NCBI GenBank assembly: GCA_027365345.1
Contig: DAHXNO010000039.1
Coordinates: forward strand, 1 to 56,595
Direction of reading: 5' to 3'
Length of the DNA stretch: 56,595 nucleotides
From: Granulicella sp.
Lineage (GTDB): Bacteria; Acidobacteriota; Terriglobia; Terriglobales; Acidobacteriaceae
Of this stretch, positions 1 through 36,520 are shown in pieces; position 1 is the first letter of the stretch, and every line of letters begins with the position of its first letter. The notes beneath the pieces are model-generated. The model was not told where the DNA came from, searched no databases, and saw only the letters and a list, made by a program, of their open reading frames with translations. The position numbers and the translations under genes are program-made.

Positions 1-330
1 GCCGGTCAGCATCGGCTCGCGTTTGAGAAAACGAAGATGATGCAGCCGCGAGAAGCCCACGTAGCAGGCCAGAATCATCCCCAGGATGAACTGGTAAACC
101 GGCATGGCGCGCGTCCGCCGCTGGATGGTGAGGTTGTCCTCAATCAGTTGCTGGAACCCGAGCTTGTCCAGCAAGGTCGCCACCGGAAGCAGCCCGCCGT
201 AGGTGGTCAGGCTGTGCGCCTGGAAGTCATAGGGCGTCGAAGCCCCGATTTTATTAGGCTCCGGAATATCTGCGTGAACCGCTTGATTCACGCGCCTCGA
301 ACGCGTACTCTGTTTTGCATCGTTCACCAT
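1..330 (-). CDS. IS1380-type transposase, N-terminal part (cut by window edge)
   Basis: The first 110 residues of a transposase read leftwards off the window, starting at the ATG whose complement is 328-330. The N-terminus is polar. A segment typical of IS1380-like DDE transposases follows (GGLLPVATLLDKLGF, then a hydrophobic ILGMILACYVGFSRLHHLRF stretch and KREPML). No stop interrupts the visible part, so the copy may be intact; the DDE domain lies outside the window. A second, broken piece of what looks like the same family lies at 32545-32670, so the element has probably been active in this genome. Family assignment is by remembered motif similarity. Confidence 0.75.
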   Translation of the reverse strand, partial: MVNDAKQSTRSRRVNQAVHADIPEPNKIGASTPYDFQAHSLTTYGGLLPVATLLDKLGFQQLIEDNLTIQRRTRAMPVYQFILGMILACYVGFSRLHHLRFLKREPMLTG

Positions 331-340
331 TTGGGTGACT

Positions 341-405
341 CCTGAGAACCGGTTCGCGAAGCTGCGAACTTCGCGTCCCTACTGTTGTACAACAGGATTC
401 TCAGG
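341..405. repeat. Inverted repeats at the probable IS1380 end
   Basis: Two motifs flank the upstream side of the transposase start: CCTGAGAA at 341-348 and its complement TTCTCAGG at 398-405. Between them sits a perfect 14-base palindrome, CTGTTGTACAACAG, at 382-395. The outer pair could be the element terminus and a subterminal copy, or a hairpin. The exact IS boundary and target duplication cannot be fixed because the other end is outside the window. Confidence 0.4.
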
Positions 406-464
406 GGTTGCCAAATGGCTCCCGTGCATTATTCAGGTGACCAATTCAGTTCGAAGGAGGATCC

Positions 465-1175
465 ATGAGGAATCTATTACGCTTTTTCACCTTAGCTGCC
501 TTCCTGGCGGCGCTGCCGGTGGCAAACGCATCGAACGTCACGGGAATCTGGAAGGGGAGCTTTGATTTTGATGGCACAACCGTGCCGTTGACCTTTCATC
601 TGACAAGCTCGGACGGCATGGTGACAGGAACGGTGGAGGGACTGCCCACATCGCCCACACAGATTCACCAGGGCAAGCTCACCAGCACCACCTTAACCTT
701 CTCAGTGAATACCGATTACCAGGGGGAGAACTATACGCTGATCTGCACAGGCACGCTGCTTGCAACCGGCCGCATCGATCTCCACATGGGAACAGACGAT
801 GGTAGTTGGAGCACGGAGCTGACAGCGACCAGGAGTGCTGAAGCCGTGTCGGCGCCTGCGTCGGCGAACGTCACGGGAATCTGGACAGGGAGCTTTGATT
901 TTAATGGTACAACCGTGGCGTTGATCTTCCATCTGACAAGCTCGGACGGCGTGGTGACAGGAACGGTGGAGGGACTGCCCACATCGCCCACACAGATTCA
1001 CCAGGGCAAGCTCACCAGCACCACCTTAACCTTCTCAGTGAACACCGATTACCAAGGAGAGAGCTATACACTGATCTGCACGGGCACGCTGCTTACACCC
1101 GGTCGCATCGATCTCAACCTCGGGACAGACGATGGAAGCTGGAGCACGGAGCTGATAGCGACGAAAAATGCATGA
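465..1175 (+). CDS. Secreted protein with two tandem near-identical domains
   Basis: This encodes 236 residues. The start is supported by a strong AAGGAGG six bases upstream. Residues 1-23 form a signal peptide ending near VANA. The mature protein is two copies of a domain of about 100 residues, each opening with NVTGIW and closing with GTDDGSWSTEL; the copies start about 111 residues (333 bases) apart. The high content of Thr, Ser, Gly and beta-prone residues suggests an all-beta fold. At DNA level 619-709 and 952-1042 are identical over 91 bases, which implies recent duplication or gene conversion. I do not recognise a named family; similar small exported beta domains of unknown function occur in acidobacteria. 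It lies between an IS and a defence-type RT with no sign of an operon. Confidence 0.85.
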   Translation: MRNLLRFFTLAAFLAALPVANASNVTGIWKGSFDFDGTTVPLTFHLTSSDGMVTGTVEGLPTSPTQIHQGKLTSTTLTFSVNTDYQGENYTLICTGTLLATGRIDLHMGTDDGSWSTELTATRSAEAVSAPASANVTGIWTGSFDFNGTTVALIFHLTSSDGVVTGTVEGLPTSPTQIHQGKLTSTTLTFSVNTDYQGESYTLICTGTLLTPGRIDLNLGTDDGSWSTELIATKNA

Positions 1176-1585
1176 ATTTGACCTGACCGGTTTGAGTCCT
1201 GCCAGTGGGGCGGCACGGCTTTGTACTCCCCGGCGCTCCTGGACTCTTCACACAGCGCCGTCATTTTCTTCGGGTTCTCGCAGAGCTCCTGATCTGCATT
1301 CGAGAGGCCCCGTCGCGGTTTTGCCGGCTTTTCCCGTATCCATCTGAGTCCGGTCAGACTCATCTGCGGGCTTATCAGCGCCACTGCCTGAAACGGCCTT
1401 CGGCCCAGTGACGACCCAGGTTTACGCTGCTCCGGGCGGCCTCCATCTTCATCCTCTCTTGTGACCGGCACGGTCAGAAATAACTCCGCTTGTATTGGAA
1501 AAGAGTGCGTTCCCCGAATGCCAAACAAATCTGTTACCCTTGCTACACCAGCTATCATCATGATAGCTAGGGTGTTAGGGCGAAC
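1176..1585. other. Gene-free stretch upstream of the RT gene
   Basis: About 410 bases between the secreted duplicated-domain protein and the RT gene. Open frames here have no recognisable homology and overlap on both strands. The only structure noted is the short inverted repeat at 1550-1568. Because some defence RTs use a non-coding RNA encoded nearby, this is the natural place to look for one, but nothing in the sequence proves a transcript. Confidence 0.4.
1550..1568. promoter_or_regulatory. Inverted repeat just upstream of the RT start
   Basis: AGCTATCA, a three-base loop TCA, then TGATAGCT: a perfect 8-base stem ending 17 bases before the ATG at 1586. It could be an operator or a hairpin in the mRNA leader that affects ribosome access. 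No clear Shine-Dalgarno sequence is seen between it and the start codon. Confidence 0.45.
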
Positions 1586-4500
1586 ATGCCTCTGTTGAAG
1601 CGAGATGTTTCGCTGGTAGATCTGTACGTTGCTTATCGGAAAGCCAAGGTTGAGGCTTACTATGAGAACACCCATGTCCAGGCACTGGCATTCGCTGAGT
1701 ATGAACAGAACCTTGCCTCTAACCTGGAGCGGCTGCATCAATCTTTGCTGGACAGAATGGAAACGTGGCCGTCCGATCCAGCGTTCCTTGGCAACTACGC
1801 CTATCTGCCGAAATCCATCGATGCGAGCGCATGGATTGATCCAAACGCCGGACACTTCAGCACTGTTGATCCGATAGCCGACTGGAAACGAAGATTTGAA
1901 CAAGCTGGCCAAAGAGCAGAAGCCAAGCTGAGATTAATCATCCGGCCTTCCGTCGACCTGCAGGTGATCTCAGCATTATGGATCATAAAGGTCGGCCAGC
2001 TATTCGATCGAGCGCTCGATCCTCAACTCTCTTACGCCAACCGCCTGCGGCGGTCGCCTGCCGCCTCTTCAAATCCATCTCAACCAGGAGACATCCATCT
2101 CGCTGCGACCGGCCTTTTTGTCCCCTACTTGTCCGCATATCGCACATGGAGAGAGAAGGGGTTGGCAGCGATCGAAACCGCTCTGTCAAAGGGGAAGAGC
2201 GTCCTCGCAATCACGATGGATATAGAGCAGTTTTACCATCGCGTTTGCCCAGCCTTCCTTCTTCGAAAGCGCTTTCTTAGCGCTATCAACCTTCAGCTCT
2301 CACCCGGACAACGATCGCTTACCCATTCGCTACTCCAGGCAATGGAGACCTGGTATCGAACAACACCTGATTACGAGGATCGGCCTCTCGGGGCGATTCC
2401 AGTCGGCCTATCCGCATCAAAGATCATCGCCAACATCCTCTTGGTAGCCTTTGATAAGGCAATCACCACAAAGCTCCGCCCGCTGTATTACGGTCGTTAC
2501 GTTGACGACATCTTTCTCGTGTTTGAGAACATTGCTCAACTTGAGGATGGCCCGGCCGTCAACGGCTGGCTCGCAGACGCTTTAGCTCCGCTTCTAACGC
2601 CGAGGCGCAACGCTGGCAAACCCCCATCTCTTCGCCTCAATCTCCCGTATGCGCGCGACTCCGAACTTATCTTCCCCGCAACCAAGCAAAAGATATTCGC
2701 GCTGTCTTCAGCACATGGGCTCGATCTCATCCAGCACATCCGCAAACAAATTCGGCTTCAATCAAGCGAACATAGACTGCTTCCCATGGTTCCAGAGTCC
2801 GGAGCCGACATGGCGTCGAGAGCATTTCTTGCCACCCAGGACGGCACTCAGCATATCGATGCTCTCCGCAAGGCAGATTCCGTTTCCGCGAGACGCCTCG
2901 GCCTGTCTCTCCTCCTCGGCGACATAGAGACCTATGCCTCCGATCTTCCGCCTAACTCATGGCGCAGCGTCCGAATCGAGTTCTATAAGCTCGTAAGCAG
3001 ATATGCACTCACCCCAGTTGGCTTCTTCGATTTCGCAGCCTATCTGCCTCGCGTGTTCGGCTTGATGTTGGCCTGTGGAGATTTCGAAGCCGCCAAGGAA
3101 TTTGTTTCCGGCTTCAGCCAAATTGCGGAATTGCTCCGGGTAACCTCAACAGTCGGCAGAGGCAAAGAACAAGCAAAATTTACGCTGTGCTTGAAACACT
3201 GTGCTGAAGCCCTCCGGCAGACCGCACTGCAAGCAGCAAGCCAGCCGAGCAGAACGCTCGATCCAGGATTCCTGGCCGTGCTCCGTAAGCTACGGCTGCT
3301 TGATCCAGAGGTCTCGCTCCCGTCCTCCTCGGTGCAACTCAAGCAACTCGCCCATAGACTGCTCTTGGCAGATTGGGGCAGCCGTCCATACAAGGAATAC
3401 TGGTACAGGAGCCAGTCCACGGACGTAATCGGACCAGCCGTGCCCAGGCAGATGGAGATCCGCCGCATTCTACGGCTGGGGGCCATCCGCCGCTTCAGAA
3501 AGCTCACACACCGGCTGAAAATCCCCTATTGGCCGGCGCTAGCCTTTCCCACGCGGCCATTCCGCATGGACGAAATCCCCCTCGCCGCCCCAGAGGTTTT
3601 CCATGATGCCATTGCCTATCAGAGGGCGATCGTGGCTCTCCGAGAAGTCCAGGCGCCAAAAGCCTCCAGCATCGGTATCGTACTCGAACCCCCGTCGCCA
3701 AAAGCATTTACCACATTTGTTGTTCCAGGAGCCCCCCGAGAGAAGATCACCGTAGGCATAAGCAGCTACAAGACAACGCAAGATCAATGGATAGCCGCTG
3801 CAATGGGCAAGCAGGACCGTTCCTTGCGCCGCTACCGCGGCCTGAACCAACTCATCAACCGAATGCTCACGGAGCGCGTGCGGCCCGACTACATTGTTTT
3901 CCCCGAGTTGAGTATTCCGTTACCCTGGGCTTTGCGTTTCGCAAAGAAGCTCGCATCCAACAATGTGTCCCTGCTGGCGGGTGTTGAGTATCATCGCAAC
4001 TCCAGCTCAGGTCCACTCAGAAACGACTGTCTCGTGTCGCTCGCGACAAATTGGCCCGGATACGCGAGTCACGTCGTCCGTCTGCAGCCCAAGTTCCAAC
4101 CTGCTCGCCACGAGAGCGCACACCTTAAAAAACTCAACCCAAAAAGCAATGGAGCACTCTATCGGCCAACCGGAAAATTGGCGTTGCCAACTCTCTACGT
4201 GCACCAGGGATATTGCTTTGCTGTACTCATTTGCAGTGATCTGACTACCATTACCAATCGAAGTGTCCTATGTGGGGAGCTTGACACGCTCTTCGTGCTT
4301 GAGTGGAACTCCGACGTCAAGACATTCGGAAGCCTGGTTGAAGCCACCGCCATGGACCTGCACACCTATGTTGTGCAAGCCAACAACCGCCTGTACGGCG
4401 AAGGCCGAATCGAGGTGCCGGCCAAGGAAAGCTATTTGAGGGATATGGTCCAGGTGAAAGGTGGCGTCAGCGACTACTATGTGCTCGGCCAGATCGATTA

Positions 4501-4597
4501 CCAGGAGCTGCGTAGAGACCAACGGCGAAAGATCGCGAAGATATTTAAACGAACTCCAATTGGATTCACGATGTCAGACCGGCGCAGAAAGAAATAG
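1586..4597 (+). CDS. Reverse transcriptase-nitrilase fusion (DRT1/UG1-like defence RT)
   Basis: A 1003-residue protein with two enzymatic parts. The RT palm has motif A around D212 (ITMDIEQFYHRV), motif B (IPVGLSASKIIANILL) and motif C YVDD at residues 305-308, so the polymerase aspartates are present. The C-terminal third is a carbon-nitrogen hydrolase domain with the full nitrilase triad: E774 (IVFPELSIP), K836 (RLQPKFQPARH) and C883 (AVLICSDLTT). The region between (about 430-700) is helical-looking with no recognised motif. RT-nitrilase fusions are known from the 'unknown group' RTs (UG1 and relatives), of which DRT type 1 protects against phage; assignment to that class is inference from architecture. 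It stands alone on its strand with no cas or retron partner and is bracketed by transposase pieces (1-330, 4696-4806), which suggests transfer. The ATG at 1586 lacks a good ribosome site. Confidence 0.9.
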   Translation: MPLLKRDVSLVDLYVAYRKAKVEAYYENTHVQALAFAEYEQNLASNLERLHQSLLDRMETWPSDPAFLGNYAYLPKSIDASAWIDPNAGHFSTVDPIADWKRRFEQAGQRAEAKLRLIIRPSVDLQVISALWIIKVGQLFDRALDPQLSYANRLRRSPAASSNPSQPGDIHLAATGLFVPYLSAYRTWREKGLAAIETALSKGKSVLAITMDIEQFYHRVCPAFLLRKRFLSAINLQLSPGQRSLTHSLLQAMETWYRTTPDYEDRPLGAIPVGLSASKIIANILLVAFDKAITTKLRPLYYGRYVDDIFLVFENIAQLEDGPAVNGWLADALAPLLTPRRNAGKPPSLRLNLPYARDSELIFPATKQKIFALSSAHGLDLIQHIRKQIRLQSSEHRLLPMVPESGADMASRAFLATQDGTQHIDALRKADSVSARRLGLSLLLGDIETYASDLPPNSWRSVRIEFYKLVSRYALTPVGFFDFAAYLPRVFGLMLACGDFEAAKEFVSGFSQIAELLRVTSTVGRGKEQAKFTLCLKHCAEALRQTALQAASQPSRTLDPGFLAVLRKLRLLDPEVSLPSSSVQLKQLAHRLLLADWGSRPYKEYWYRSQSTDVIGPAVPRQMEIRRILRLGAIRRFRKLTHRLKIPYWPALAFPTRPFRMDEIPLAAPEVFHDAIAYQRAIVALREVQAPKASSIGIVLEPPSPKAFTTFVVPGAPREKITVGISSYKTTQDQWIAAAMGKQDRSLRRYRGLNQLINRMLTERVRPDYIVFPELSIPLPWALRFAKKLASNNVSLLAGVEYHRNSSSGPLRNDCLVSLATNWPGYASHVVRLQPKFQPARHESAHLKKLNPKSNGALYRPTGKLALPTLYVHQGYCFAVLICSDLTTITNRSVLCGELDTLFVLEWNSDVKTFGSLVEATAMDLHTYVVQANNRLYGEGRIEVPAKESYLRDMVQVKGGVSDYYVLGQIDYQELRRDQRRKIAKIFKRTPIGFTMSDRRRKK

Positions 4598-5193
4598 CTT
4601 TTTACCCTTGCCCGTGTAAAACGAATGTCACAACCAGCCGGATTGGAACCGATCTCTATCCTCGTTGCCACTGCTCTGGCGTGGTCGGCTCTTGCTTACC
4701 TGGACACGCGACTTTTCAGTAGTCTGGCGACGGCTTTGTTGAGAAACTCGCTACCGTTGTTGGAGTGAAATCCAAAAATACAAAAAGGGCTCTCTAGCGG
4801 AATGTGTGGGTGAAACGATTGGCGACGGCTAACATTGAAAGTTCCACAGCGGAACTGGTCATCGGAAGATGGCCCCGGCGCATTGATGCTTAACCTGTTG
4901 ATGCATTCATGCAACCATCCGAGACAAAAGCGTTTGCTTGGCGACGCATCCGCAGGATGCTCGCTTGCCTTGTTCCACTTTTCACCCACAGATTCTGCAT
5001 AGGGGGCATATTTCCCAACCTATGTTCTTTGTTTTCACCGGACAAGAATCCCTCGGAGCAATCAGATTTCTCAAACCTGGCCGCGGGCCGAGTTTTTGCT
5101 TCCTGTTCGGTTGCGGCAGACGCGATGCCGTCTCACCTGTAAATTCCGACGGTCGCTTCTAGATGAGAAGATGGAACAAACAGGGTCTCCTCC
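4598..5193. other. Intergenic region holding a transposase scrap
   Basis: About 600 bases between the RT gene and the GH85 gene. Apart from the transposase remnant at 4696-4806, no open frame here has recognisable content and no RNA gene was seen. It marks the right border of the mobile-looking left part of the window. Confidence 0.5.
4696..4806 (-). pseudogene. Integrase-core transposase fragment
   Basis: The minus-strand translation contains FGFHSNNGSEFLNKAVARLL, which matches the FHSDNGSEFIN segment around the second catalytic Asp of rve/DDE integrase-type transposases (IS3/IS481-like). In this copy the Asp is replaced by Asn, and the upstream and downstream parts of the enzyme are missing. 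It is therefore a dead remnant. Family placement beyond 'rve integrase core' is not possible from so short a piece. Confidence 0.6.
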
Positions 5194-7473
5194 ATGCCGA
5201 ACCGCTCCGATTCTCTGCCATTCCTCACTCGCCGCCAGTTTTCGTTTTTTGTCGCCGCTTCGGCGATGGGCCTACTCGGCCGGAGCAGCGGCTTTGCAGT
5301 CGCCGCGGCTGGTTCAAAGCCAGCCGCGGGGCTGGCGCCGCTTTTTCCCTTGGCCTCGCACACAGCCGACAGCTTTGCCGCGCTGATGGAGTACGTGCCG
5401 CAGGTCGATCCCGACGCGGGCTTCTTCCAGTCGCGGGTGCCGCGCGCGGTAAGGATCCCGGCCTTCGCCCCGGCGCAGGCGCATCCCCGGCTGAGCCCGG
5501 AGCCGCAGGTGGCCACGCTGACCGGCTGCTACCGCACCCTGGGCGAGCAGGCCGACGAACGCTACAAGCGCCAGCGCTACGGTACGCCTCCGCCGGACGG
5601 CGTGTACGTGACGCGCTTCATCGGCTACCACGACGTAGTGGTGAACTGGAGCGGGCCGGGTGTGATTCCCAACCCGGCGATGACCGACGCGGCGCACCGC
5701 AATGGTGCACTGTGCCTCGGCACGATCTTCCAGCCTGACAAGCGAATCTTCGACTCAAGCATGGTGCCGGCCCGCCAGGTCGCGGCCAAGTTCGTCGAGC
5801 TTGCGATCTTTTTCGGCTTCGACGGCTACTTCATGAACTTCGAGATGGGCACGCCGGAGGGCCACAACCAGGTGCTGGACCTGCTCGGCATGATGCACCA
5901 AGAGGCCCACCGGCTTGGCAAGATGGACTTCTATATCCAGTTCTATGACGGCTCGGCCAGCATGAGCCGCCTGATGCCGGTAGCCGATGGCGCGCCTGCG
6001 GTCTCCTTTGCTGACAGCACCATGCTCGACCAGGGATGGAGCGGCTACAGCATGACGCACGGCTGCTGCTCGGGCCAACCCACCGACGCCGAATCGGTCT
6101 ACGCCTACTGCATCAAAAAGGGGCTCGATCCTTACAAGTCGGCATTCTTCGGTTACCAGCTTTACCCGGGACCAGGCTATCTCTGCCTCTCGGCGCCGTC
6201 GGTCATTCACCCGAACGACAGCGCGACGGCTTACGGCAGCCTGCAGCTCTATAGCTTCGACGACGGTCTGCATACCATGCAGGCGGCCAAGGATCAGCGC
6301 GATGGCAAACCGGCCACTGGCGCCCTGTCCCAGGAGGAGTACTATACGCTCGAGCGCTGCTTTTTCAGTGGGCAGTCGCAGAATCCGGCGCTCAACAACA
6401 CGCCAAACCCCGAGCAGGCGCGTATCTATGCGGACGTCGCCGGCGGCGCCCGAAGGTACACCGACTACGAGCCAGGCCAGGATCATCCCACTGACCAGGT
6501 GAAGTTCCCGATCACCTATGGCGTGGCGAACTTTACTGTCGAGCACTCGGTCATCGGAGCCTTCCCGTTCGTTTCCCACTTCAACCTCGGCGCAGGGGAG
6601 GGATTCTTCCTCCAGGGCAGGAAAGTGAGCAATCGGCCATGGTTCAACATGGGTATCCAGGACCTTTTGCCGACCTGGCAGTGGTGGCAGGAACCGATGC
6701 ACGGCGGGCTCCACCGCGAGGCGGCCAAGTATGCGCCGCTCAACGTGCGCTACGACCAGTCCGTGGCCTTCGACGGGGGAGCATCGCTCCATATCTCCGG
6801 CCGCCTCCAGGCGAAGCAGAGCGTGGCGCTCCGGCTCTACAAGACGCAGCTTCGGGTCGAGAATGCGGACGACCTTCGCCTTCACCTGGTCTGGCAGGGC
6901 GCAGCGGAGATGAAGCAGGCGCTCTCGGTTGGGCTGATCTTCCAAGACGCGCCGGAGCGTACCCAGTGGGTCGCCTTTTCCCAAGCAAGCAGGGTCTCGC
7001 ACCAGGCGCTGTCGAACGGCTGGGTGCGCTCGGAGTTGCCGCTCGCGGACTATCTCGGACGCACCATCGCCGCGCTGCTGCTGGGCTTCGAGACAGCCGG
7101 AGCCAAGCGCGGCACGGCGCAGGTCGACGTGCACCTGGGCGAGATCTTCGCCGGAAGCGGGAGCGGCCAGAAGTCGGCTGCGGCGCCGCAAGGGTTTGCC
7201 ATCGAGGCGTATGCGGCGGCCAGTGAGACTGGCGCGTTGAACCTGCGGCTGTGCTGGAAGCGGGAGGCGAATGTTGCGAGCTATGACCTCTTCTGCGTGA
7301 GCGGCAACGCGGCGAAGCGTAGCTGGCTGGGGCGTGTCTATGCTGGCTGCTACTACGCAGAGAATGTCCCGAGGGAGCCGGGAAGTGCGGTGCGCTTCGA
7401 GCTAACCTCCACCAGCCTCTCGAATCCGTTGCAGCGCAGCCTGCCGGCTGAGGTCGAGCTGAAGGCAGACTGA
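5194..7473 (+). CDS. TAT-exported GH85 endo-beta-N-acetylglucosaminidase
   Basis: A 759-residue protein. The N-terminus has a twin-arginine signal (LTRRQFSFFVAASAMGLLG), so export is expected in folded form. Residues about 130-460 resemble a GH85 TIM barrel. The catalytic pair is seen in FDGYFMNFEMG, with N215 orienting and E217 as acid, matching the Asn-X-Glu of Endo-A and human ENGase, which cut the GlcNAc-GlcNAc core of N-glycans with substrate assistance. The C-terminal 200 residues are beta-rich, as expected for an accessory carbohydrate-binding module. There is no neighbouring transporter or second N-glycan enzyme on this strand. A soil acidobacterium could use it on fungal or plant glycoproteins. 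The start codon is the first Met before the RR motif. Confidence 0.85.
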   Translation: MPNRSDSLPFLTRRQFSFFVAASAMGLLGRSSGFAVAAAGSKPAAGLAPLFPLASHTADSFAALMEYVPQVDPDAGFFQSRVPRAVRIPAFAPAQAHPRLSPEPQVATLTGCYRTLGEQADERYKRQRYGTPPPDGVYVTRFIGYHDVVVNWSGPGVIPNPAMTDAAHRNGALCLGTIFQPDKRIFDSSMVPARQVAAKFVELAIFFGFDGYFMNFEMGTPEGHNQVLDLLGMMHQEAHRLGKMDFYIQFYDGSASMSRLMPVADGAPAVSFADSTMLDQGWSGYSMTHGCCSGQPTDAESVYAYCIKKGLDPYKSAFFGYQLYPGPGYLCLSAPSVIHPNDSATAYGSLQLYSFDDGLHTMQAAKDQRDGKPATGALSQEEYYTLERCFFSGQSQNPALNNTPNPEQARIYADVAGGARRYTDYEPGQDHPTDQVKFPITYGVANFTVEHSVIGAFPFVSHFNLGAGEGFFLQGRKVSNRPWFNMGIQDLLPTWQWWQEPMHGGLHREAAKYAPLNVRYDQSVAFDGGASLHISGRLQAKQSVALRLYKTQLRVENADDLRLHLVWQGAAEMKQALSVGLIFQDAPERTQWVAFSQASRVSHQALSNGWVRSELPLADYLGRTIAALLLGFETAGAKRGTAQVDVHLGEIFAGSGSGQKSAAAPQGFAIEAYAAASETGALNLRLCWKREANVASYDLFCVSGNAAKRSWLGRVYAGCYYAENVPREPGSAVRFELTSTSLSNPLQRSLPAEVELKAD

Positions 7474-7886: not shown

Positions 7887-8954
7887 TCAGGGAGCTTGCG
7901 TCATGCGGCGTTCCGGCTTGGGCGGGGCTGGATGAAAGCAATCTATATGCAAGCCGGTCAGCTTCCCGTCGATGCGATCGAGCTCTCGCTCCACAATCTC
8001 TCGAACTCGTCGCGCTGATCCAACGGCGCGCAGGTTCAGAAGCAGTTCGTGTCGCGGCGCGGAGCATGCATCCAACGCTCCCTCAACCGCCGGAGCCTGC
8101 CCATTCGCGCACATCGCTGCCTTCAGAAAACCCGTCGCAGAATCGATGATGGCCTTCAGATGCACAATGCCGACATGGTTCGCGGTGAATTCTCGATCAA
8201 GAGCACCCAGCAGCGGTCCCAGCACCAAAGCAGGAGACCGAGGCGCACTGGGCTCAATCGTTACTCGCAAGTTCAGCCACGCCAACGCAGCTTCGGCGCT
8301 CGCATATTGTTCGTAGTCAATGTCAAGAATCTCGCCTCCCACTCTCAGGGCGCCTGAGAAGATCTCATCCAGCCAGGCTGTAACGCCCTGACCGGTTCGA
8401 GCACTCACTTGGCGCACATGCTGCGCTGAAATCTGCGGGCAATCTGGATACAGATCGGATTTTGTACAGCAAACCAGGTCCGCCTCCTGCAACTGTTTGT
8501 GAAAAAGAAAGCTGAGGTCTGGGTCGGCATCGTCGGCAAGCAGGCTCCTTGCCCGTTCTGGATCCACGAGAACGGTAAATGGAGCTAGCCGAAATTCATC
8601 GCTATACTCCAACAGCGGGCGAAGGATGGCCGCTGCAATATCTGTACAACTGCCGACAGGTTCAGCGAAGATGACCTCCGGTTGGTAGGCGCGCAATCCT
8701 TCCATCACGCGCAGCAAATCAGAAAGCTTGCAGCAAAAGCAACCGCCGGTCACTTCACCGGATTGCATACCGTGTTGTGCCGCGTAGCCGGTATCGACAA
8801 GCTCGTTCCCCTGGTCATTCAAGATCACCGCGCTGCGAATGCCGCGGAGCCTCAACTCCTCTGCGGCAGCCAGAATCAGCGTCGTCTTCCCCGCCCCCAG
8901 AAAACCTCCGACCATCGCAATCCACGGCCTTTGCTCAGGGGCGTCAGTGGTCAC
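7887..8954 (-). CDS. COG0523 (CobW/G3E) GTPase, putative metallochaperone
   Basis: A 355-residue protein with a P-loop (GGFLGAGKTT, residues 16-25), the family's metal-binding GCFCC motif at 71-75 and a G4-like TKSD. These mark the G3E GTPases that deliver metals (Zn, Co, Ni) or cofactors to target enzymes. The start is GTG at 8954, whose first bases form a GTGA overlap with the stop of the upstream GH116 gene, so the two are translationally coupled. Pairing a metallochaperone-like GTPase with a glycosidase is unusual; GH116 enzymes are not known to need a delivered metal. Substrate metal cannot be told from sequence. Confidence 0.85.
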   Translation of the reverse strand: MTTDAPEQRPWIAMVGGFLGAGKTTLILAAAEELRLRGIRSAVILNDQGNELVDTGYAAQHGMQSGEVTGGCFCCKLSDLLRVMEGLRAYQPEVIFAEPVGSCTDIAAAILRPLLEYSDEFRLAPFTVLVDPERARSLLADDADPDLSFLFHKQLQEADLVCCTKSDLYPDCPQISAQHVRQVSARTGQGVTAWLDEIFSGALRVGGEILDIDYEQYASAEAALAWLNLRVTIEPSAPRSPALVLGPLLGALDREFTANHVGIVHLKAIIDSATGFLKAAMCANGQAPAVEGALDACSAPRHELLLNLRAVGSARRVREIVERELDRIDGKLTGLHIDCFHPAPPKPERRMTQAP

Positions 8955-11689
8955 GCCTTCACCTCAATCTGAAGAGTGTGACCCTCCGCCAACTGGATCG
9001 GAGATTCGAAATGAAAAATAGATCTCTCGTTCACTTTCTCCATCGAATGAGAAGCAGTGTCCCCATTATTCTGAACAGAAGCGGAGGATCCTGATCCTGA
9101 AATCTCGCAGGAGCTACAAAAAAGCGTTCCCGCTAGCACATGGATCGTAAAGCGAGTGCCGCCTCCGGCAATAGCGCGGTAAGCAAATGTCCCCCAGCCG
9201 CTTGCCGTGGACCAGAAGCAATTGAAATTCTTATGCGTGACTCGCGGAATCGCGGCCACGGAGGCTTTGGCTCCATCGTATTGAAATCCGCTCAGCGCCA
9301 CAAAGCTCGTCCAGGAAGCCATAGCGCGCGCGTAGTGGTGGCCGCACTCTGCTTCATCCCACGGGCTGCGTTTTTCTCCGTCATACCTGGCGCGGACATT
9401 GTGAATGCATTCAATCCCTTCCTCCACCATTCCGGAATAGATCATCAAGGCGGCTGTTGCGTGTTCAAATCCTGTCATCACTTCAGCAAAATATGGAAAC
9501 GGAATTCGCGGCCGTTGGGCTTTGCCGTAGTCGCAAATCACCATCGCGGCCTCATGGTTCAGGGCAAACGTTCTCTCCACATTGTCGTGGTCAACCAGCG
9601 ATCGCTTGTAGTTGTATGCATAAATCGATCGGAGCGCCCTCTCCACATTCCTCGCAGACACCAACGGCCCCAGGTTTGTCACGTGGGCGAGATATTGCCC
9701 CATGAGCTGATCGATCAGACAGCCATCTCCAACCTGATATTCAGGATTCTCTGTCTCTTCCGTTCCCATACCGCCGCGCAAATGGGGAGCAATCTTGCTT
9801 GCGGGCAAACCACGGATTTGCTGGATGTAAAACTCGTCGTTGAAAAGGTGCGCATCAATCCAGGAACTGCCCTGATCAAAGATCCGGCGATACTCCGCAG
9901 CGGACGCACTGTCGCCGACTGCACGCGCCATCTCTTCCCCAGCCCGCAATGCCCCCAGATAGTAAATTCCGCACAAAGGATTGGGACCGTAGAACTCGAC
10001 GTCATACGTGTTGTGTTGCGCGCCAGTCAACACGCCGGATTTGTCTGGATCCCAGCCGCCCGGCTCCCACGCAAAGGCAATCGCCTGCTTGATCTTCGGC
10101 CACTTGGCCTGTAGCCACGCGTGGTCGGCGGATAACCTCCAGCCCAGATACGCATGCATGATCTGGCCCATCTGTCCGTCTGCCGCCACCAAGGCAGAGC
10201 GTGGGTGTCCCTCGGGAAGTAATTGTCGTGCGCGGATTCCGCCAGCATCATCCTCAGAGTACCCAAACGAAACATTACGCAAAGAACGAGCGAATGACGG
10301 GAAGAGAAACTCCGTCGCTGTCTCGTAGCTCCACACGTGGGTGCAATTTCCAAAGCAGCATCCAATCGCGTCGTCACTGCCTTCAAAACCGTGAAATTCT
10401 CCGTCGGCGGTGCGGAAACACGTCGTCGAAGCCAATGTCGACAGGTTCGCGCTGGCAGCCTCCTTCACCACATCGGGCAGGGTGCTCTCCCTGAGCGCCC
10501 TGGCGAAGGTGCGAGTGCGCCGCTCCAACTCCGGTAAATGGATTGCGGTGTATTGTGCAGCGTCCCATGCATCCTTGAAACGAACGGCGTAATAATTGCC
10601 GATCACCGTATTCTCTTTGCCCTGCGGAGCCGACCATCCGCACCAATCCGGCGTCCGATTTGGAAAGTGCCACGCCAGCAGAAACGTCATAGTGCCGGAT
10701 TGGCCGGAAGCTACTGTCGTTTGCTGGCAAAGCGCGCCCACAGCATTCCGGGGATTGGGTTCTGTGCCCAACTGGCCATGTTGTGAAAACTCATCCCAAT
10801 AAAGCAAGGGAGCGGTCCACCAGGCCTCTTTCGGCCATCCACGCCAGTGCGTCACGTTTGTCTTTTTGTCCGGCAAGGCCGCCAAAACAAAACTGCCGCG
10901 CATCGGTTCGTCGGACCGCAACGATGGATTGCTCATCAGCAGGCCTTCCAATCCTTGGCCGCTGCGATATTCATTCACACGTCCATCCGACGTCAAAAAA
11001 GGACTACTCTTCGCTGGCTTCCCTGCCACAGGATTATCAATCGCGAACGCGATGCCGGCTTTCACTGGCGACATTCCAGGATTCGTCACACGGTAACGCA
11101 GCACGGCTACTGGAAGTCCGGAGTCGTCCGGATCATGCGGAATGAATGGAGAGAACGCATCGAGTTCCACTTGCACCGGGAGCCTGCGGTCTTCAAAGTC
11201 AATATGCGCCAGCGGATATTCCCCGGTGAATTTCGCCCCTTCCAGTCGGCTCAGTCCCGGAGCATTATTCGAGCCCAGCCCGGACTCTCCCTGATAGGGA
11301 GGGAGTATGCGCGATTCGAGCACATGGGCCATCGGTTTGGCGTTGCCGGATTGAATCCAGATTGCGGGAAATGCATACGCAGGCGAGCCGCCCTGGTTGG
11401 GCCGATTGAAGATCTCCCAATCGCGTAGTTGTCCCCGGCCGCCCAAGCCAAGGCTACCCGCGGTAACACCGCCCAGCGGAAATGAAATCATCTTGAGTTG
11501 GCGACCCTCGAACACGCGAGGATAAGAAATTTCAGTCTGTCCGAGCGGATCATCTGTGCCTTTTTTGCCGGTCGCAGGCGCCTGCGCCTGCATGTCTTCA
11601 GTCCAATAGCCCGATTGGCTGGCTGCGCCAATCATTCCCGCCGCTTGCTTCAGAAAGTCACGGCGCGGCAATTTGCTCTTCCCGCTCAT
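8951..11689 (-). CDS. TAT-exported GH116 beta-glucosidase (GBA2-like)
   Basis: A 912-residue protein. The start is taken as the ATG at 11689, preceded by a purine-rich GGAGGAGGAG; an upstream GTG in the same frame would place that ribosome site inside the gene. A twin-arginine signal follows (KLPRRDFLKQAAGM). The N-terminal beta-domain carries FPLGGVTAGSLGLGGRG, as in bile-acid beta-glucosidase/GBA2 proteins. The catalytic (alpha/alpha)6 domain shows QHNTYDVEFYGPN and CLIDQLMGQ, the latter aligning with the GBA2 segment that holds the acid/base Asp. Such enzymes cleave beta-glucosides or glucosylceramide. The gene is coupled to the COG0523 gene downstream (GTGA) and by an ATGA overlap to a broken frame upstream (11686-11910), so it sits inside a former three-gene operon. 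Confidence 0.85.
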   Translation of the reverse strand: MSGKSKLPRRDFLKQAAGMIGAASQSGYWTEDMQAQAPATGKKGTDDPLGQTEISYPRVFEGRQLKMISFPLGGVTAGSLGLGGRGQLRDWEIFNRPNQGGSPAYAFPAIWIQSGNAKPMAHVLESRILPPYQGESGLGSNNAPGLSRLEGAKFTGEYPLAHIDFEDRRLPVQVELDAFSPFIPHDPDDSGLPVAVLRYRVTNPGMSPVKAGIAFAIDNPVAGKPAKSSPFLTSDGRVNEYRSGQGLEGLLMSNPSLRSDEPMRGSFVLAALPDKKTNVTHWRGWPKEAWWTAPLLYWDEFSQHGQLGTEPNPRNAVGALCQQTTVASGQSGTMTFLLAWHFPNRTPDWCGWSAPQGKENTVIGNYYAVRFKDAWDAAQYTAIHLPELERRTRTFARALRESTLPDVVKEAASANLSTLASTTCFRTADGEFHGFEGSDDAIGCCFGNCTHVWSYETATEFLFPSFARSLRNVSFGYSEDDAGGIRARQLLPEGHPRSALVAADGQMGQIMHAYLGWRLSADHAWLQAKWPKIKQAIAFAWEPGGWDPDKSGVLTGAQHNTYDVEFYGPNPLCGIYYLGALRAGEEMARAVGDSASAAEYRRIFDQGSSWIDAHLFNDEFYIQQIRGLPASKIAPHLRGGMGTEETENPEYQVGDGCLIDQLMGQYLAHVTNLGPLVSARNVERALRSIYAYNYKRSLVDHDNVERTFALNHEAAMVICDYGKAQRPRIPFPYFAEVMTGFEHATAALMIYSGMVEEGIECIHNVRARYDGEKRSPWDEAECGHHYARAMASWTSFVALSGFQYDGAKASVAAIPRVTHKNFNCFWSTASGWGTFAYRAIAGGGTRFTIHVLAGTLFCSSCEISGSGSSASVQNNGDTASHSMEKVNERSIFHFESPIQLAEGHTLQIEVKA

Positions 11690-28949: not shown

Positions 28950-30083
28950 ATGCGAGCTTATGTCCTTGGCGCCGGGGCTTCCCACCCGGTATACCTGCTC
29001 GGAACCCGGTTGTTCGATGCCATCGACAAACACATCCAAAGCTGCGGCCCAATGCTTCACAGATTTGACTACCAGAAAGATTGGCCGAAGCTCAAAACAT
29101 GGCTGGCGACGAACTCCAACCCACTCCTGAGCCATTCCTACCGAAACAAAAACATCGAACAAATATTCACCGTGCTCGATCTAGCGCAGGCGCTGATCTC
29201 CGACGCCCGGAGCAAAGTCCTCCCTGCTGCAAGAAAAGGCGCAGCAGATGCGCGGACGGCAGAGACAGAACTCGATTCGGTCAAGAATGAAATCGACGAG
29301 TACCGGAGGGTGAGAGACATCCTTTTGTGGGCGCTGGAGGCGTTTTTTCTAGACCACAACCACGACGATAACAAGACCTTCAGCTCATCGGCTTGGAACG
29401 ATCTCCGCCGCTTGGCGTGCTACCTGCAACCCGGCGATGTAGTCATTACGTTCAACTATGACTCCACCATCGAACGCGTTCTTTATTCTCTCGGAAAATG
29501 GTCTCCCTCAGACGGCTATGGAGACGCTATCGCATTTCAACAGAACGAATACGACCACACGCCCGTTATCTTCGCGCCCTCGAAGGTGAAGGTTCTACAT
29601 CTGCATGGCGCGGCAGGCTGGTATCAGAGGCCTCCCACCCCGACGGAGCCGATAAGGACGCGGATCGCCCTCGACCCCATCTTTTTGCGCGGGTTGGGTA
29701 TTCACCATGTGGACGTCAGCCTTCCGAACCGACCTCCAAACCAAAGACAGATCTTGCTCCATCCAACTTTCTTGAAGGTCTACGGAGGCGTAGACCGCAG
29801 CCACCACATCTTCAGCCGCATATGGAAGGATGCCCTGGACGCGCTACAACGCGCCGGCAAGGTGACGATCATCGGGTACAGCCTCCCCCATGCCGATAGC
29901 GCAGCCTGGACATTGCTGCACACGGGCTGTACGCGAGGAACGACCGAGGTGGTGAATCCAAACAAAAGCGTGCTGACGAATCAATATTCAGCCCTCATCC
30001 ACCTCGCCACGATGGCCAAACAGATGACACTGGAACAATGGCTGGACTCGCAGACAGAAGACGCACCGGGCGCGACGACTTGA
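28950..30083 (+). CDS. Stand-alone SIR2-like family protein (possible NAD-dependent defence gene)
   Basis: A 377-residue protein with a very good ribosome site (CGGAGGAAAC before ATG). Motifs of the SIR2-like Rossmann fold are in order: VLGAGASHP at residues 5-13, DVVITFNYDSTIE at 163-175, VLHLHGAAGW at 215-224, TIIGYSLPHADSAAW at 306-320 and VVNPN at 334-338. These correspond to the NAD-binding glycine loop, the N-D pair, the His loop and the second NAD segment. Related proteins deplete NAD+ during phage infection (for example in Thoeris, DSR and pAgo systems), but many are uncharacterised. There is no partner gene, no extra effector domain, and an IS110 scrap lies 230 bases upstream, consistent with transfer. 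Defence role is inference. Confidence 0.8.
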   Translation: MRAYVLGAGASHPVYLLGTRLFDAIDKHIQSCGPMLHRFDYQKDWPKLKTWLATNSNPLLSHSYRNKNIEQIFTVLDLAQALISDARSKVLPAARKGAADARTAETELDSVKNEIDEYRRVRDILLWALEAFFLDHNHDDNKTFSSSAWNDLRRLACYLQPGDVVITFNYDSTIERVLYSLGKWSPSDGYGDAIAFQQNEYDHTPVIFAPSKVKVLHLHGAAGWYQRPPTPTEPIRTRIALDPIFLRGLGIHHVDVSLPNRPPNQRQILLHPTFLKVYGGVDRSHHIFSRIWKDALDALQRAGKVTIIGYSLPHADSAAWTLLHTGCTRGTTEVVNPNKSVLTNQYSALIHLATMAKQMTLEQWLDSQTEDAPGATT

Positions 30084-34880: not shown

Positions 34881-36014
34881 TCAAAGACAGAAACAACGGA
34901 CAGAAACAACGCAAATAAGGAACCGGGGAAATGATCCCGCCCCGAAAGACAATGCCTGGCCGAGCGAACCTGCGACTCTCCGAAAATCGGACCGCAACCG
35001 CTGCAAACGCGCCTTCACCTCGGAATCGACCCCGTCCATCGACCCACGACCCAGCACCGTGGCAACATCGGAAGGCGGCAGCACAAGTTGCCAAAGCGGA
35101 CGACTCCAGGAATAACGTTGCCGCGGCAGATACACCATCACCTGGGATACGTCATACCGCCCCTCGTAATCCAGCAAAATGTAGCCCAGCATCTGCAGCG
35201 CGGCAGCACGAAGTTTAGCCGCGTCGAGGCTCGCTGTGCACTTGAACTCTATTAACGTCTTATCAACGATGATATCTGCGTCAGCCCCGCCAACGTCTCC
35301 GCCACCCGTGAATGTAGGGTTGAACGTTGGACCCGGTTTGAAAAGATGGGCCGCGTCTTTCTCGAACGCGACTGCAAGCTGCCCAACGTCCCGCACAACT
35401 TCTAATTGGACAGCAGCAAGCAGATCACCGGGCTTCCTGGTTTTTTTCAGAAGAACGTCAAATTCAGGAAACAGTCTCCGGGTTCGACGTATTTGTTCAA
35501 ACCACGCCATGACAACACAACTGGCATCCAAAGCAGCTTCGGCATTCTCGCTAAGACTTAGAGCGAGGGGATTAATCCGAGCAACCAAGTCATCGTGGAA
35601 CTTCAGAAATTCTTTGCCCGCCTTAGCAACTCTCCCAGCAAGCATGCCAACGCCGTGAGCAGCAACAGTATCGTAAGAGCGGTAAGAACCGAAGCAGTAC
35701 CGGAGTCGATAATCAACGGCAGTCCCGATTGTGCCTTGGTTGCTTTTTGGAGCCAGAGTTTGCAAACAGCAGGGCGGAAGATCACCAAAGCCCATTAACG
35801 ACGTCAGCTCCTTCGGTAAGGGAAGTCCCTTTCTCCGCCCCTGCAAGACCGGAAATGCATCTTCCAAAAACAACCGGATAGGACTGGATGGCGTATCGAG
35901 ATGACTTGTAAGCGAAATACTCACCCCCCCTGCGCCATCAGCGAGAATCCAGGCGATACGCGAACTTAACGTTAAGCCCTCACCGAGGCAAATCTCAAAT
36001 CCCGGAAAAGCCAT
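34881..36014 (-). CDS. PD-(D/E)XK nuclease-like protein of unknown function
   Basis: A 377-residue protein from the ATG at 36014 (MAFPGFEICLGEG); an earlier start would add 38 low-complexity residues. Residues 244-260 read GGADADIIVDKTLIEFKCT, giving D247 (or D251), E256 and K258 in the order of the PD-(D/E)XK nuclease core, followed by a helix with a Gln-Gly pair (ALQMLGYILLDYEGRY) as in restriction-enzyme-like folds. The N-terminal half has conserved-looking helices (NPLALSLSENAEAALDASC) and no known domain. Relatives that I recall occur as lone genes in variable regions; a role in DNA cleavage or defence is plausible but unproven. It is convergent with ribE. Confidence 0.65.
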   Translation of the reverse strand: MAFPGFEICLGEGLTLSSRIAWILADGAGGVSISLTSHLDTPSSPIRLFLEDAFPVLQGRRKGLPLPKELTSLMGFGDLPPCCLQTLAPKSNQGTIGTAVDYRLRYCFGSYRSYDTVAAHGVGMLAGRVAKAGKEFLKFHDDLVARINPLALSLSENAEAALDASCVVMAWFEQIRRTRRLFPEFDVLLKKTRKPGDLLAAVQLEVVRDVGQLAVAFEKDAAHLFKPGPTFNPTFTGGGDVGGADADIIVDKTLIEFKCTASLDAAKLRAAALQMLGYILLDYEGRYDVSQVMVYLPRQRYSWSRPLWQLVLPPSDVATVLGRGSMDGVDSEVKARLQRLRSDFRRVAGSLGQALSFGAGSFPRFLICVVSVRCFCL

Positions 36015-36520
36015 AGCAATTTTCTCGCGCCGGCCGCTAGGCCGGATGATGCTCCCGCTCAAACTCTGCACTTTCTCGCGGCGCAGAGAGAGACGGCTGA
36101 AAACTTGAGCCCATCGCACAGCAGGCAAGCAAAGGCAAGGTCCTCGGGACCGGCAAGAGCGTCAGCCCGCCATCTATCCGCCGGGCCGAACGCCCTCTCG
36201 CGCTGAACCCAACGTCAACGCACCGCTCTTCCTCCGTGCAGCCCATCCTATGTCGTGTGGCGAGTCCTTAAGGGCCGAGCTTCAAGCGGCCATTCAGTCG
36301 CCCGGGCCGCAGGCCCTTCTTTCCTGCCGCAGGTTCGGGGTCTCCTAAGGGTGATCTTCGCCCGCCTTGGGTGAAAGGCCGGAGCGCAGCCGCAGGCGGA
36401 GCGACCAAACTGCCTTCCATCCTTCTGCCCGGACTTCCCGCCGCCGGCCCTCGCAGTCCTCAACCACCCCCCCCATGCGCGTATGCTTGTGTCACCACAG
36501 CTACCGATCGAGGAGCACGA
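36015..36520. other. Divergent 500-base gap rich in inverted GC repeats
   Basis: Between the PD-(D/E)XK-like gene and the ruined phosphatase gene. The middle (36270-36410) has several short GC-rich inverted patches such as GGCCGCAGGCC and GGGCCGAGC, of a type common between acidobacterial genes. No gene was recognised. Confidence 0.35.

Follow-up and report, generated by a model that had tools for sequence, protein, structure and literature searches.

What kind of reverse transcriptase (RT) is encoded near the start of a 56,595-nucleotide contig of the acidobacterium Granulicella sp. (DAHXNO010000039.1 of assembly GCA_027365345.1; the whole stretch is called the window below), and how might it act? 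The open reading frame (ORF) at 1586–4597 is a genuine, intact fusion of an RT to a nitrilase. Its product is a member of the UG5 RT–nitrilase family, an already known kind with a validated anti-phage member, and it probably acts as a single-gene abortive-infection defence of the class 3 UG/Abi type by a mechanism like that of DRT1. What is added here is the corrected family, a candidate priming serine, a lid motif in common with DRT1 and a clade of relatives embedded in BREX loci.

Family assignment

The 1003 codons of the ORF contain no stop or frameshift, and all catalytic residues tested are kept. The initial annotation, made from the sequence alone, described an RT fused to a complete nitrilase domain with both active sites intact. 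This was borne out: D212 and YVDD (D307/D308) of the RT and the nitrilase tetrad E774-K836-E843-C883, which adds E843 to the three residues first noted, are the same in all 78 full-length rows of the alignment, a count qualified for the RT by the fact that the relatives (the best 80 of 472 from a genome scan) were chosen by two short patterns, one containing YGRYVDD. Open frames of fewer than 930 residues were left out of this alignment and checked separately as fragments, and L007, which duplicates L008, was removed.

The PADLOC profile RT_UG5-nitrilase (PDLC03780) matched the protein with 895.6 bits, residues 7–1002 aligning to profile positions 20–897 of 907, whereas the Drt1a (UG1) profile gave 86.1 bits (E = 3.3e-25) in two separate stretches. 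A FastTree phylogeny of 81 rows was rooted with three DRT1-like proteins of Acidobacteriota; the branch that separates the UG5 rows from those three has a support of 100. DRT1/UG1 membership was rejected on the weak, partial Drt1a match and this separate branch. The initial annotation had placed the protein among the unknown-group (UG) RTs, with UG1 (DRT type 1) as the example, and had suggested a search against profiles of such RTs; that search upheld the RT–nitrilase class and the unknown group, gave UG5 as the best family and did not sustain UG1. With RT and nitrilase in one multidomain protein, the product falls under the definition of class 3 UG/Abi RTs, which comprise an RT plus a nitrilase or a phosphohydrolase (PMC13275509). 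When the UG5 profile was compared with solved sequences, DRT1 (9yfd) ranked first among the 14 matched (E = 1.8e-23) and was alone in being matched in the RT as well as the nitrilase part.

Retron and group II intron RTs, the placements that the initial annotation had named as contrary to its own, were also rejected on their profiles. Retron St85 scored 33.6 bits against a cut-off of 235 and Retron_TIR 13.3 against 600, and the maturase (X/GIIM) domain had no Pfam match at E ≤ 1. An Rfam scan of positions 1–6000 gave no match, so no msr/msd RNA was seen, although retron RNAs outside Rfam would escape such a scan. The lack of an Rfam match here, together with a DNA similarity to the nearest relative, from Acidicapsa, that is confined to 1576–4587, would be expected if no noncoding RNA template were needed. 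We consider it highly improbable that the enzyme is a retron-like or group II-derived RT that copies an RNA template and uses the nitrilase as its effector. Fold comparison was set aside as a family test because it does not discriminate: for the RT core VIA ranks G2L4, diversity-generating retroelement and group II RTs first, and for the RT half Foldseek ranked DRT9, AbiK, AbiA and DRT6 first. DRT1 9yfd was not among the fold-search rows shown (structure library up to 8 April 2026).

C-terminal lid and invariant serine

The nitrilase domains of UG5 and DRT1 align in hhalign with a probability of 99.8%. Within the C-terminal motif of the window protein (Table 1), K988 and P991 are present in 78/78 rows and pair with K1219 and P1222 of DRT1 in two comparisons with 9yfd; hhalign also sets both opposite their K and P counterparts in further DRT1-like proteins. 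In the lid of DRT1, the substitutions K1219A and A1223F do as much damage as deletions of the C-terminus, and C1116A abolishes immunity (PMC13275509).

A second conserved site lies beyond the RT palm. S394 is invariant in all 87 rows that reach the position (the 78 full-length rows plus nine fragments). A Ser, Thr or Tyr is kept in at least 77 of the 78 rows at just five positions (Y181, Y302, Y305, S394 and T656), and between residues 340 and 640 S394 is the sole invariant one. In predicted models it stands at the end of a helix (375–394/397), beside segments of low confidence (394–399 and 416–430 in the RT-half model, 417–430 in the full model). The DRT1 segment 382–478, which holds the priming residue S402, is not resolved in the structure (PMC13275509). 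One viral relative in which RT and nitrilase are split (L093) keeps the equivalent of S394, with the neighbouring E and R changed. S394 is a candidate priming serine, and its proposed equivalence to DRT1 S402 is based on helix-end position, not on alignment.

Relatives and their defence neighbours

The UG5 rows of the tree form clades of 13, 24 and 39 rows, with L071 and L092 as two long single branches outside them; all supports are FastTree local supports, and these two long branches are flagged. The window protein falls in the 13-row clade (support 100) as sister to the copy of Acidicapsa dinghuensis (support 100), which is intact, 76% identical and the closest among the matches listed. Thus, the nearest relatives listed are acidobacterial, in keeping with the kinship first proposed. 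After Acidicapsa, the next relatives in the clade come from an Acidobacterium metagenome-assembled genome (MAG), Nitrosomonas ureae and a Cytophagales MAG; the remaining three acidobacterial tree rows fall in the two larger clades. Among the best 80 of 472 relatives, at least five loci are acidobacterial, and one MAG accounts for two of these. At E ≤ 1e-20, one of 396 genomes of the phylum, the window's own, has a full-length match and four others match in the nitrilase part only, and none of the 27 other genomes searched from the genus (completeness 54–100%) has the family protein, one of them holding a DRT1-like protein in its place. Three DRT1-like RT–nitrilases (L185, L186 and L187), with open frames of 1283–1298 residues, occur in the same phylum, one of them in the window's genus. 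UG5-small was sought in the 396 genomes without a match, but the controls gave none either and its absence is thus not shown.

A search of phage records and a first scan of viral contigs returned no relatives. Four viral-contig relatives of real length (L090–L093) were obtained with the alignment as query, the other 76 of 80 rows being shorter than 150 residues. In L093 the UG5-like RT (7968–9932) and the nitrilase (9919–10860) are separate, overlapping open frames; a search for further split forms gave no new full-length one.

Neighbouring genes were counted at the 82 loci placed in one of the clades I, II or III, the window itself not being counted and L007, L071, L087, L092 and L093 of the 87 loci staying unassigned; seven loci (L013, L015, L018, L062, L077, L083 and L084) were assigned by judgement from similarity rather than from the tree. 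Names derive from one PADLOC-scanned exemplar per cluster and BLAST to that exemplar (the HsdS exemplar was unscanned). Within the flanks covered, a BREX gene is present at 20/82 loci (0/15, 1/27 and 19/40 in clades I, II and III) and a type I restriction–modification (RM) gene at 14/82 (2/15, 10/27 and 2/40). At 17 of the 19 clade III BREX loci, a BREX gene shares the strand of the RT open frame and either overlaps it or is at most 10 nt away; the count has no background rate near random genes, and this tight operon spacing is the argument. The BREX and RM neighbours support a defence role for the UG5 family and suggest that one UG5 clade is a BREX operon member, in which the RT–nitrilase could also serve as a module of a different defence system. 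We did not meet the link between UG5 and BREX in the literature passages searched, and it may already be in print.

A third kind of neighbour, a Drt1b-like membrane-protein gene, was found at 5/82 loci (three, two and none in clades I, II and III). Its close spacing, and its presence at three loci of the window's own clade, would fit a two-component form in which the RT–nitrilase needs a membrane effector with one transmembrane segment (1TM), the window copy being an orphan or having its partner encoded elsewhere. The UG5 system tested in Escherichia coli does include a 1TM protein (PMC9122126). However, no such gene was found in the flanks of 77 of the 82 loci, including L010–L015, by BLAST to one exemplar, which divergent partners could escape, and DRT1 protects without Drt1b (PMC13275509). 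We therefore regard a two-component form as unlikely and keep to a single-gene system.

Proposed mechanism

The initial annotation called the anti-phage mechanism of such fusions poorly understood, which is outdated for DRT1. DRT1, DRT5S and DRT5L carry out template-free, protein-primed synthesis of DNA that is protein-linked, and in DRT1 the serine-primed adducts on S402 give rise to a dormant filament made up of nitrilase tetramers (PMC13275509). DRT5S and DRT5L presumably correspond to UG5-small and UG5-large. The anti-phage role that was first suggested is itself probably correct, a UG5 RT–nitrilase having been listed with the validated defence systems of a 2022 study (PMC9122126).

The following steps are modelled on the published DRT1 and DRT5S/DRT5L work; the present analysis contributes the family, the active-site residues, the predicted nitrilase fold, the scattered distribution and part of the relatives' defence context. 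(i) The RT would add untemplated DNA to itself, probably on S394. (ii) The DNA adducts would bring the nitrilase domains together as an ordered, dormant oligomer with closed lids. (iii) A phage replication product would free the C-terminal lid (K988–P991). (iv) The freed nitrilase would hydrolyse an essential amide- or amine-bearing metabolite. (v) The infected cell would halt before the phage matures. A wider proposal, held tentatively and at slightly less than an even chance, is that S394 primes DNA in the whole UG5 branch, occupying a place comparable to that of DRT1 S402 on the mobile end of the first post-palm helix, that the K-x-x-P-x-G-F tail is the lid of all RT–nitrilases, and that RT–nitrilases, fused and split, would form one mechanistic family with one clade as a BREX operon component. 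The invariant serine and the common lid motif allow direct mutational tests of the DRT1 mechanism in UG5.

Several observations weigh against a DRT1-like defence in the window strain. (i) E395, R397 and P400 are near-invariant too (77/78 each), and a structural role for the S394 region is therefore possible. (ii) MAFFT does not pair S394 with the short S-G motif seen in DRT1-like proteins: the S394/S402 region stays unaligned in three MAFFT modes with seven such proteins (9yfd not among them), and hhalign of UG5 with DRT1-like proteins aligns the nitrilase part alone. (iii) According to the authors of the DRT1 study, other class 3 DRTs do not conserve S402 (PMC13275509). (iv) Lid residue 989 is R in the window protein and P in 76/78 rows. 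(v) The only same-strand ORF of at least 30 residues that starts within 200 nt past the gene (47 aa, 4625–4768) overlaps an insertion-sequence (IS) remnant, and a membrane protein as in the validated E. coli UG5 system was not found at the locus. (vi) The window belongs to clade I, which has no BREX gene and few RM genes; its defence context is therefore indirect. No BREX or RM protein was found among the ten window ORFs scanned with Pfam; taking these together with four ORFs scanned with PADLOC, the RT–nitrilase gene has no recognised BREX, RM or Drt1b neighbour.

Locus surroundings and mobility

The leftmost 438 bases have copies of 97–99% identity at three other sites in the genome and diverge past 438, the end of an IS. 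On the other side of the gene, the copy on contig C110 that matches the transposase remnant lies within a reading frame of 381 aa that matches rve below threshold. A second stretch 3' of the RT gene (4821–5007) has a 71% copy on contig C56.

Table 1. Positions of the features discussed, in the window or at relatives' loci.
Feature	Position or loci	Strand	Basis
UG5 RT–nitrilase gene, 1003 aa, intact	1586..4597	+	PADLOC PDLC03780, E = 1.2e-269, residues 7–1002
RT core matched by Pfam RVT_1; motif A D212, motif C Y305-V-D-D308	2171..2545	+	profile match, alignment
Codon of S394, invariant serine ending helix after palm; candidate DNA-priming residue	2765..2767	+	alignment, models
Predicted nitrilase-fold domain, residues 717–995, with E774, K836, E843, C883	3734..4570	+	alignment, fold search, hhalign
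C-terminal lid motif K988-R-T-P991-I-G993-F994	4547..4567	+	aligned to DRT1 K1219-P1222-G1224-F1225
Inverted repeat up to start codon; possible operator	1532..1586	.	arms 1532–1558, 1560–1586
End of multi-copy IS (transposase, DDE_Tnp_1_4 below cut-off), cut by contig end	1..438	-	genome comparison
IS transposase remnant, 80% identical to contig C110 copy	4663..4789	-	genome comparison
Clade III BREX loci	L022, L024, L025, L029, L030, L033, L035–L037, L043, L059, L076, L078, L079, L081, L085, L089 (also L032, L084)		
Drt1b/RTasTM-like membrane-protein gene, 16–58 nt downstream of UG5 RT–nitrilase	L020, L048, L083, L090, L091	same strand at four, opposite at L090	PADLOC exemplar

Mobility, which the initial annotation had read from flanking transposase pieces, is probable given IS pieces on both sides and the gene's absence from all the other genomes of the genus searched. 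In Acidicapsa a phage-type integrase lies 111 nt away from the RT–nitrilase gene, and type I RM genes lie at a distance of about 2–5 kb. The IS pieces, the scattered distribution, the gene-limited similarity and the Acidicapsa setting are together typical of a single-gene cargo that moves horizontally, and the window gene was probably acquired horizontally. Two genomes of the genus retain a homologue of GH85, which in the window is encoded downstream of the RT gene, and their GH85-bearing stretches were searched for an empty insertion site; when eight window proteins were compared with these stretches, GH85 alone matched, and the event was not reconstructable. A decayed or silent passenger of IS-driven rearrangement, non-functional in this strain, would likewise be flanked by IS pieces and would be consistent with the missing defence partner, the gene's G+C content (0.549, against 0.607 for the window) and the P989R change in the lid. 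Since the reading frame is unbroken, the catalytic residues are all kept and an intact copy exists in Acidicapsa, we find such decay quite improbable and favour a functional, mobile defence gene.

The arms of the inverted repeat before the gene are 70% complementary, with the inner nine bases perfect; the repeat is not common to the closest relative, whose DNA similarity begins at 1576. Further along the window, a 236-aa ORF (532–1164, +) holds a 300-nt unit duplicated in tandem (92% identical, spacing 333); its product looks secreted by eye and has no Pfam family. A 377-aa protein (28950–30083, +) has sub-threshold AbiH and SIR2_2 matches and no PADLOC match at E ≤ 0.01. A 415-aa protein (34884–36128, −), 30 kb from the RT gene, weakly matches the PADLOC RT-associated PD-DEXK nuclease (E = 2.2e-8) and has no Pfam match at E ≤ 0.01.

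Comparison with known systems

According to myRT, a nitrilase co-occurs with 50% of UG5 RTs in complete genomes. The closest known system is the pair of UG5 RT–nitrilase and 1TM protein encoded by a P4-like satellite, one of the anti-phage systems that Rousset and co-workers validated in E. coli in 2022 (PMC9122126). The window protein has in common with it, and with the PADLOC family, the domain order, the catalytic residues and a full-length profile match, and is about 30–33% identical to the UG5 copies of E. coli and a Sinorhizobium plasmid, the aligned E. coli copy not being confirmed as the Rousset protein. The window locus differs in that no adjacent membrane protein was found and in that its relatives are acidobacterial. 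DRT1/UG1 (9yfd) likewise joins an RT to a C-terminal nitrilase with a C-terminal lid, and the nitrilase aligns through K1219, P1222, G1224 and F1225; however, DRT1 has 1229 residues against 1003 and is related by a far lower profile score, and DRT1-like proteins lie on a separate branch. The viral split form L093 consists of two overlapping genes rather than a fusion and is 25–27% identical in the two parts, yet its RT carries the invariant serine and its nitrilase the same tetrad and K-x-x-P.
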